Assembly (NCBI GenBank): GCA_026014735.1
Contig: JAOZHT010000001.1
Coordinates: 558,001-622,000 of the forward strand
Origin: Candidatus Bathyarchaeota archaeon
Lineage (GTDB): Archaea > Thermoproteota > Bathyarchaeia > Bathyarchaeales > Bathycorpusculaceae
DNA length: 64,000 nt
Reading direction: 5' to 3'
In this document: piece after piece, positions 18,343 through 28,277 of the stretch
How the letters are laid out: every line of letters begins with the position of its first letter
Position numbering within the stretch: the stretch's first letter is position 1
Program-made: the position numbers and the translations under genes
Notes under the pieces: model-generated
The model's input: the letters and a program-made list of their open reading frames with translations, nothing else
The model's database searches: none
Told to the model about the DNA's origin: nothing

Positions 18343-18488
18343 AAGTAAATCCTCCCCTAAATCGTTCTTGCTAGCACATTAAAACGTTTAGTATGGTTTC
18401 TGGTGGCTAATAATCCAAAACACATAAATTCTTACTCATTGTCTTTATGGAAACTGTCGGGAGGTAGCTCAGCCTGGCAGAGCTCTCG

Positions 18489-18520
18489 AGCCCCTTGGCA
18501 GTACGCCAATGGACGGAGAA
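18489..18520 (+). other. tRNA-Tyr intron 1, non-canonical site 30/31
   Basis: The 32 bases interrupt the 5' strand of the anticodon stem. They must be removed to give the fifth stem pair G31-C39. The interior folds as TTGGC/GCCAA. CTCT upstream can pair with GGAG near the 3' end, leaving three-base bulges CG|A and AA|G, as in a relaxed bulge-helix-bulge motif. The exact site is set mainly by the need for an intact stem. Confidence 0.75.
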
Positions 18521-18527
18521 GCTGTAG

Positions 18528-18574
18528 AGGTCTACCCATGGTGGGCTTCATTCTAGCCTGTCTAGGCCACAGAT
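18528..18574 (+). other. tRNA-Tyr intron 2, canonical site 37/38
   Basis: The 47 bases follow G37. The bulge-helix-bulge motif is complete: CTGT (32-35) pairs with ACAG, the bulges are AG|A and AT|A, the inner helix is GGTCTA/TAGGCC, and the outer helix is the anticodon stem. This is the standard substrate of the archaeal splicing endonuclease. Confidence 0.9.
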
Positions 18575-18613
18575 ACCGAGCTGTCGCAGGTTCAAATCCT
18601 GCTCTCCCGACCA

Positions 18614-24746: not shown

Positions 24747-24859
24747 GCGTTTAATTTATCTAAAAATGGCTTTTAAATCTCGCTTTATTACGTTTTTGAG
24801 GCGATCGGATAATGGTCAAAAGGAATTGGTGGGGCCGACCGGATTTGAACCGATGACCT

Positions 24860-24888
24860 TTACCCAAGACGACGCAATGTCTGTCTTT
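24860..24888 (-). other. tRNA-Trp intron 2, non-canonical site 43/44
   Basis: The 29 bases split the anticodon stem from the variable loop. A clean motif is seen: central helix ACCC/GGGT, bulges GC|A and AA|A, inner helix AAGAC/GTCTT. Splicing yields CCCGC-AGGTC, a normal stem plus variable loop. The central helix uses exon bases 38-41, so intron 1 and intron 2 compete for overlapping bases. Confidence 0.85.
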
Positions 24889-24894
24889 GCGGGT

Positions 24895-24959
24895 TTCTCT
24901 AAGACAGCTCCAGAGATTCGTCATCCTCCACTGGAGTCAGCAAACCCGAGATTTGCTTT
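24895..24959 (-). other. tRNA-Trp intron 1 (37/38), possible C/D-box guide
   Basis: The 65-base intron follows G37. Splice motif: CTCC/AGAG (three of four pairs) with bulges AG|A and AA|A and inner helix AAGCA/TGTCTT. Inside are a box-D match (CTGA), a near box C (ATGACGA) and two antisense segments: CGGGTTT to the precursor around 38-42, and TCTGGAG to the anticodon loop 32-38. The base five from CTGA pairs with C39. Intron-borne guides for Cm34 and position 39 are known in archaeal tRNA-Trp. Confidence 0.7.
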
Positions 24960-25247
24960 CTGGAGCCCGCCGTCTTAGCCTGTCTGGACTACGACCCCAC
25001 CTAAGCCCCAAAAATAAACAAACAGGTATTAAAAGAATATGGCGTCCAAAGCAACATGGCCTTTGTTGGCAAGAAAAAGATGTTGTCTAAGTTGCCGTGC
25101 AGTCCCTCAAATCAGCCGGCTCTGCCGTGTGGTATCATTGAATTTGGGTACAATTCTGTGTATTTCTGGATGCAATGTTGGAAAATCCCTTAATTAGAAT
25201 TCGCCTAAGAAGCAATTAACCCAAACCAATTGATGGGAGATACAACC

Positions 25248-26681: not shown

Positions 26682-28277
26682 TTAATTCGGTGTTTTTCGC
26701 TTAACACTTCTTGTGGCGGGCACTTCGAGTAGCTGCTTTTCCTTCGGTTTTTCTGTTTGGGGTTCAGCTTTGGCTGCTTCCGATTTGGCTTTTTCGGCTT
26801 TGATCAAGCGCACCTCAGTGAGAATCCTTGAAAGAATCTGCTCATCGTTAAGTATGCCTTTAGGTGCATCCACGACTTTGCGCAGCATAATAGGCACAGT
26901 ATCCATGCGGTAAACGGTGCCTTCGTATTCGATGCCGCACCACTGCGTTGGAAACAACACATCCCCCACCATAGACGTCGCGTTCATGTCTGGGTTAATG
27001 ACTATGAGGGGATGCTGAAGCATTTTCTGCATCGAAACCTTGGGGAAATGCGCGCCGGGGTCTGAGCCAATCACCAGGGTTGCGTCGTTGTCGCCGTTTT
27101 TGAGTAAATCTATGGTTGTGTATTCGCCGGGGTTGTATTGGGGGTAGCCCTGCGAGAAGTCGATGGCATACGGGTAGCCTGTGCGCCAGGTAAAGGCCAC
27201 GTTGGCGCCGGTGATGTTGAAGTGGCCCCTCATGGGCATGATGACAAATTTGGTTCTCCGATTCAAGTCCCGAACCATCTTGATAGCTAGCTCTATGTTC
27301 CTGAACCTGCCCGCGGATGCTGTTAAACCTAACCCAAAAAAGATTGCGCCGAACTCGCAGTTCACCATCAAATCCGCGATTTCCTTTAGGTAATCCACGG
27401 GGACGCCGCCGACTTTATCCACATCGATTTCTTGGTCGTTGATAAGGCACCGCAGCACCTCCATGATTTCATAGTCCCTGTTAGGTTCAACCGCAACATA
27501 GTAGTCTGCGGCTTCAGCCGTCATGGTTTTAATCGGGTCAAAAACAATCAATTTACGCCCCGCCTTGTTAAGAAGCTGCGGCGGAGCATCAACGGTGCAT
27601 GTTTGTGGCTGCGGTAAAACCTCTTCGCGGATAATTCGTTTAGCGGCCACCTCCATCTTTTTGCGGCTGGCCTTGCCTTTTACTTTTTGCATGTAGCTCT
27701 TCCATCCGCTTCCCTCAAAGCGTCCCTCTGGAAACGCAGTGTAACGTTCCACGTGACGCGGATGGGATGCCCAGGGGTTGCTGCCCCAGTAAACAATCAA
27801 GTCCGCGCGGTGCCTAACCTGCCCCAGTGTGCATCCGGGTATGCCGGCTTCCTGAGTCGCCATCATCGAGGGTCCATGACAGATGCTGCAAACGTTATCT
27901 AGAGTGGACCCTAACTCTTCGGCTAACTCTACGCCGATGCCCTGTGCTTCGCCAGTGCAGCATTCCCAGCCGAACAGCAGCGGGTACTTGGCGTCGGTGA
28001 GGATTTGGGCGGCTTTTTTGACGGCTTCATCCATCGGGACCTCAACCAACCTGCCGTTTTTGCGTATAAGAGGCTTGGTGATGCGTTCGCTTTTGTAGCC
28101 GTGGACCATTTTTGCTTCGCAGACTGCGCATCCGTTTTTCATCTTGACGATTTCGTTGTTTTCCACGGTGACTTCTAAATCGTCGCATACGCAGCCGCAG
28201 ATGGGGCAGACGACTGATTTGATGATTTGTGAGGGGGTTTTTTTGGTGGTTGGGTTGGGTTTGTGGGCGTTAGGCAT
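26682..28277 (-). CDS. fwdB: Formylmethanofuran dehydrogenase subunit B
   Basis: Molybdopterin (Mo or W) catalytic subunit of the enzyme that reduces CO2 to a formyl group in the first step of the archaeal C1 pathway, or runs in reverse. The 531 residues start with a 4Fe-4S site CPICGCVCDD plus CAVCEAK. The likely metal ligand Cys lies in SICHGPSMMATQ, and pterin-site segments include YWGSNPWASHPRH and VIGSDPGAHFP. The C terminus carries an extra Lys/Glu/Ala-rich tail after ~490. The other subunits (A, C, D) are not next to it, which is unusual. Mch is 15 kb away. Confidence 0.93.
   Translation of the reverse strand: MPNAHKPNPTTKKTPSQIIKSVVCPICGCVCDDLEVTVENNEIVKMKNGCAVCEAKMVHGYKSERITKPLIRKNGRLVEVPMDEAVKKAAQILTDAKYPLLFGWECCTGEAQGIGVELAEELGSTLDNVCSICHGPSMMATQEAGIPGCTLGQVRHRADLIVYWGSNPWASHPRHVERYTAFPEGRFEGSGWKSYMQKVKGKASRKKMEVAAKRIIREEVLPQPQTCTVDAPPQLLNKAGRKLIVFDPIKTMTAEAADYYVAVEPNRDYEIMEVLRCLINDQEIDVDKVGGVPVDYLKEIADLMVNCEFGAIFFGLGLTASAGRFRNIELAIKMVRDLNRRTKFVIMPMRGHFNITGANVAFTWRTGYPYAIDFSQGYPQYNPGEYTTIDLLKNGDNDATLVIGSDPGAHFPKVSMQKMLQHPLIVINPDMNATSMVGDVLFPTQWCGIEYEGTVYRMDTVPIMLRKVVDAPKGILNDEQILSRILTEVRLIKAEKAKSEAAKAEPQTEKPKEKQLLEVPATRSVKRKTPN

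Follow-up and report, generated by a model that had tools for sequence, protein, structure and literature searches.

The first intron of the tRNA-TrpCCA gene in this Bathyarchaeota genome (2.9 Mb, 99% complete) is, with a probability of roughly three in four, the bathyarchaeal form of an ancient archaeal tRNA-Trp intron guide RNA. From its sequence it is predicted to be homologous to the known guide and to work like it, and it would not be a full two-domain member because the defining outer boxes are absent. The initial annotation had taken the intron for a box C/D-type guide that targets its own tRNA at positions 39 and 34, a reading that conservation and covariation support. The Haloferax intron acts in trans as a guide for 2′-O-methylation of C34 and U39, and growth does not require it (PMC7994747, PMC4090602, PMC11408192). 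In a review, the intron-encoded guide is attributed to Euryarchaeota, Haloferax among them (PMC11408192); beyond these, homologous layouts with compensatory changes in both pairings run through Bathyarchaeia and other Thermoproteota.

The tRNA-Trp gene and its splice motifs

The gene, with an encoded CCA and two introns, lies on the minus strand at 24827..24998 of the window, by which we mean the whole stretch of 64,000 nucleotides that was analysed. Scanned over the window, the Rfam model RF00005 scores it 31.8 bits at 24830-24998 (minus strand), and removal of both introns leaves a 74-nt cloverleaf with a predicted folding energy of -31.4 kcal/mol. Both introns have the lengths given in the initial annotation, 65 nt between positions 37 and 38 and 29 nt between positions 43 and 44. 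ARAGORN detected no tRNA anywhere in the window, because the two introns break the gene up. Near-identical introns were found by a pattern scan of named genomes in Candidatus Bathycorpusculum and other Bathyarchaeota records, so that the host is placed in that genus or near it. The window also holds a second interrupted tRNA gene with a long insertion (18458-18610, plus strand), which scored 38.1 bits in a whole-genome search with RF00005 and was missed by the window scan with the same model and by ARAGORN. An ORF at 26682-28277 on the minus strand appears, on reading, to resemble formylmethanofuran dehydrogenase subunit B.

Intron 1 occupies 24895..24959 (minus strand), and its position can equally be written as 38/39, since A both precedes and follows it. 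From 5′ to 3′ it reads AAAGCAAATCT - CGGGTTTG - CTGA - CTCC AGT GGAG G - ATGACGA - ATCTCTGGAGCT - GTCT - TAGAGAA. Its borders form a bulge-helix-bulge motif (BHB 1) with 3-nt bulges, A36-G37|A and A-A|A38, around a 4-bp central helix, of which three of the four pairs form in the window and three or four in all 144 distinct relatives. Intron 2 (24860..24888, minus strand) occurs in 16 of the 25 precursors read from the genus. In its motif (BHB 2), A38-C41 form the central helix with GGGU, the bulges are GC|A and AA|A, and the inner helix shows compensatory changes in 42 relatives. A bulge-helix-bulge is present at both introns, as first described, and that of intron 2 is a relaxed one because it has no outer helix. 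Other interruptions of the gene were seen among relatives. An apparent third intron lies between the D arm and the anticodon stem in several of them (L113, L121, L129, L131 and others), and in other bathyarchaeal families (L145-L157) a different insertion after position 43 replaces intron 2, in some cases with an altered 3′ end.

Antisense elements to positions 39 and 34

The first antisense element, CGGGUUU (24942..24948, minus strand), pairs with AAACCCG across the 3′ border of intron 1 and places C39 opposite the fifth base before CUGA, exactly as had been claimed for it. In the genus (25 precursors read, 26 aligned), 95.8% pairing is found over this duplex and the kink-turn stem, compensatory changes included, against 36-60% in slid controls. 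The pairing also covaries where its target lies within the intron. Position -1, the last intron base, forms a standard pair with its guide partner in 131 of 135 introns, while shuffles gave a mean of 99.4 and a maximum of 110; these shuffles, like those for position 34 below, ignore relatedness, so that the figures are not probabilities, and the changed states fall in separate lineages. Among 144 distinct introns U-A, A-U, C-G and G-C all occur at this pair: A-U in two lineages of the genus and in another family of the class, C-G in other classes, and G-C in a single locus (L257). Two observations on this element count against the guide reading. The element is lost or mismatched in six loci (L050, L061, L154, L159, L160 and L166), and the predicted methylation of C39 went undetected in Pyrococcus furiosus (PMC7668247).

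The second element, UCUGGAGC (24907..24914, minus strand), sits in the 12-nt spacer between AUGACGA and GUCU and pairs with GCUCCAGA across the 5′ border, so that intron 1 contains the reverse complement of its own anticodon loop. C34 is opposite the fifth base before GUCU and is also the endpoint of the 12-nt spacer rule counted from AUGACGA; the two rules thus converge on C34. The near box C (ATGACGA) followed by an antisense to the anticodon loop was already part of the initial annotation, and its spacing does put the +5 base on C34. In the genus, 98.1% of the alignment cells of this pairing are paired. Within the exon the target is invariable, because it is the anticodon loop itself. However, the duplex extends into the intron, where i1 is paired in 143, i2 in 130 and i3 in 86 of 144 introns, and it ends at i4. 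Shuffled means for these three positions are 112, 81 and 58, and all three observed values exceed every shuffle. The intron pairs take such forms as AA/UU, UU/AA, AU/AU, AG/CU and UC/GA.

The position-34 guide had at first been held insecure because its box is degenerate. GUCU is degenerate indeed, but the insecurity is contradicted by the better-conserved pairing (98.1%, with i1-i3 covarying across phyla) and by its persistence in L050, L061 and L166, which have no 39 guide. Both guides, that to position 34 included, are supported as candidates by these comparisons. Could only one of them work, with the other a relic? The same three loci, in which the 39 antisense is gone and the 34 antisense retained, would fit this, and so would the decay of the box D for position 34 in the window's family. 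Moreover, no separate C34 guide sRNA was found in the genome with the pattern TGANGAN{2,8}TGGAGCNNNGA (boxes TGANGA and NNGA), which misses other box variants. On the other side, both antisense elements are intact in the window and both covary across the class, and we regard a single working guide as somewhat unlikely. As for position 34 itself, tRNA-Trp of Sulfolobus acidocaldarius carries Cm34 (PMC7668247).

A covariance model of the anticodon arm and intron (R1) finds the element in 49 of the 53 good genomes of the family and in 110 of 120 of the class, and also in the phylum's other classes. The guide-target pairing, for which the initial annotation had pointed to related genomes, is thus conserved class-wide, and both pairings covary.

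Box architecture and the known guides

The tRNA-Trp intron guide of Haloferax volcanii and Pyrococcus (sR50) resembles the present intron in the tRNA, the intron position and the targets 34 and 39 (PMC7994747, PMC11408192). It has two box pairs, C/D and C′/D′, whereas only the inner pair is intact in the window, and position 39 is U in Haloferax and C in the window. The Rfam family sR40 (RF01297) has the consensus CGGGUUUG-CUGA-...-GUGAUGA-..UUUGGAG, which matches the window in its order and its 39 antisense, but the outer boxes differ and the window scores 19.1 bits, below the gathering score of 50. The sR40 model gave no match above its cut-off over 300 genomes of the phylum, which means that it is too narrow for bathyarchaeal introns. 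RF01297, listed as a C/D snoRNA, itself appears from its sequence to be the tRNA-Trp intron of Thermococci. The consensus printed for sR40 occurs within one tRNA-Trp intron (L212).

A pattern scan of named genomes recovered tRNA-Trp introns from Thermoplasmata, Methanomassiliicoccales, Thermococci and others. Most introns of other phyla have the order outer box C - guide 39 - CUGA - C′ - guide 34 - outer box D. Those of Thermoplasmata and Methanomassiliicoccales (L194, L200 and others) share with the window the order guide 39 - CUGA - C′ - guide 34 and the 12-nt spacer, with GUGA or AUGA at the box D place; they differ in possessing the outer box C, which the window has not.

These introns bear on the order of the boxes. 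It had been proposed at first that the intron is a circularly permuted box C/D RNA, with D before C, and that only the excised circular form restores the working order. In favour of this, the intron's only good box pair is CUGA followed by AUGACGA, and the closed stem between them resembles that of a terminal kink-turn. A permuted C/D sRNA has been found as a circle in Nanoarchaeum equitans (PMC3491384), and tRNA-Trp introns do circularise, with circles found in each of the re-analysed archaea, among them Sulfolobus (PMC12558985). However, introns of other phyla arrange this pair and these guides identically, with an outer C and D in addition, which identifies CUGA and AUGACGA as an ordinary inner D′-C′ pair. 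Similarly, box D precedes box C in the gene for sRNA24 of N. equitans as it does in the window, but sRNA24 permutes its outer boxes (PMC3491384), while the pair in the window is the inner one in canonical order. With guide 39 before D′ and guide 34 after C′, both guides stand in the canonical places for a linear RNA, and we consider the permuted form very improbable. Singh et al. in 2004 reportedly assigned U39 to C′/D′ and C34 to C/D, in agreement with the order seen here.

By homology, then, CUGA (24937..24940) is D′ and AUGACGA (24918..24924) is C′, and between them lies the kink-turn hairpin stem CUCC AGU GGAG with one bulge base (24925..24936), all on the minus strand. The first two stem pairs are standard in 101 of 101 bathyarchaeal introns, and the third is variable and paired in 85 of the 101. 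The D′-C′ linker accordingly has at least two stem pairs in all 101 introns from Bathyarchaeia, against only 0-1 bp in 13 of 20 introns from other phyla. Judged by its sequence and the covariation of the stem, the inner box pair can probably form a kink-turn or k-loop, and binding of L7Ae is predicted. Over Bathyarchaeia the second base of box D′ (window position 24939) varies widely, giving CUGA, CGGA, CCGA and CAGA, and the fifth base of box C′ (24920) varies as AUGA-C/A/U/G-GA; this variation departs from the usual U.U. Introns of other phyla carry CUGA at D′, but the search pattern demanded CUGA.

The outer boxes follow a different distribution. An outer box C, read as RUGA upstream of guide 39, occurs in 17 of 20 introns from other phyla and in 3 of 101 from Bathyarchaeia, with 1 of 14 in the phylum's other classes and 0 of 21 in the genus. 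The place of the outer box D, 12 nt after C′, holds the degenerate GUCU in the window (24902..24905, minus strand). This place ends in GA in none of 23 introns of the genus, none of 21 of the family and 20 of 31 of the order, and at the order level it is often GUGA, as in Thermoplasmata; box D of six other-phylum introns was read by eye as AUGA. In weighing the two sets of counts, it should be kept in mind that the R1 model includes the stem and that the named set was picked by a pattern fixing CUGA, whereas neither choice involved the outer boxes. The counts suggest that the outer motif has disappeared and that the inner one has turned into a kink-turn with a stem, or else that the opposite change occurred in the other phyla.

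Pairing, splicing and a possible working order

Both duplexes reach intron bases, so that full pairing needs an intron still attached to the target. Since they cover the splice borders, target recognition is, by prediction, tuned to the unspliced precursor. In cis, the 39 and 34 duplexes together would form a pseudoknot, and a precursor acting as target in trans is equally possible. In the minimum free energy fold, the 34 antisense is bound in cis to the anticodon loop. Because guide 34 can pair with its own precursor in this way, its covariation alone is no proof of methylation.

It may accordingly be asked whether the pairings are a splicing or folding device, a cis pseudoknot that holds both borders around an L7Ae-bound hairpin and delays or shapes cleavage. 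The position of both duplexes across the splice borders, where they preclude the bulge-helix-bulge, would suit such a device, as would the minimum free energy fold and the degenerate box D of the 34 guide in genus and family. However, a folding device would have no need of such precise distances (+5 and 12 nt) to C34 and C39, relatives carry GUGA or similar exactly at the box D place, and in Haloferax the homologous intron is a methylation guide (PMC11408192). We judge this explanation unlikely, less so than permutation.

Exon bases 38-43 are common to BHB 1 and BHB 2, which are therefore mutually exclusive, as the initial annotation had noticed; the order of intron removal that it drew from this is unreadable from sequence. 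Guide 39 draws on the same bases, as do BHB 2 and the combination of anticodon stem and BHB 1, and these states too are mutually exclusive. These states fit an ordered path of methylation followed by splicing, without proving one. The genome encodes fibrillarin, Nop5, L7Ae-family proteins, RtcB and two EndA-type genes, the last of which would be consistent with a heteromeric enzyme of broad specificity.

If intron 1 is a guide RNA, as we favour, L7Ae would bind its single kink-turn (CUGA-CUCC/GGAG-AUGACGA) and recruit Nop5 and fibrillarin. The antisense beside CUGA would pair with the 3′ border of the precursor and place C39 for 2′-O-methylation, and that after AUGACGA would pair with the 5′ border and place C34. 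Methylation would precede splicing, because the exon bases that enter the duplexes are also those of the bulge-helix-bulge. The RNA may act in cis, in trans or as a circle. Compared with other phyla, the outer box C would have been lost, and in the window's family the outer box D as well, while the inner D′/C′ pair, the sole pair kept, would have gained a real stem. A further step, which we take only tentatively and at odds below even, is that the intron is a one-kink-turn, two-guide RNA, in which a single D′/C′ kink-turn directs both sides on the intron-containing precursor, C34 being served without a recognisable box D. Against the guide reading as a whole, the intron has no outer box C and a degenerate outer box D, which a standard two-domain archaeal guide is believed to need for efficient methylation of C34. 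With their stepwise loss of the outer boxes, these introns form a natural series in which to look for the minimal archaeal C/D guide that still functions, and to ask if one kink-turn is enough when box D is missing.

Copies of the gene are clustered in one of the genomes surveyed (G008). Within about 3 kb of its contig C22 (L046, L061) there are a two-intron tRNA-Trp gene, a one-intron tRNA-Trp gene without the 39 guide on the opposite strand, and a 3′ fragment of a third tRNA-Trp. The cluster perhaps marks an integration site.
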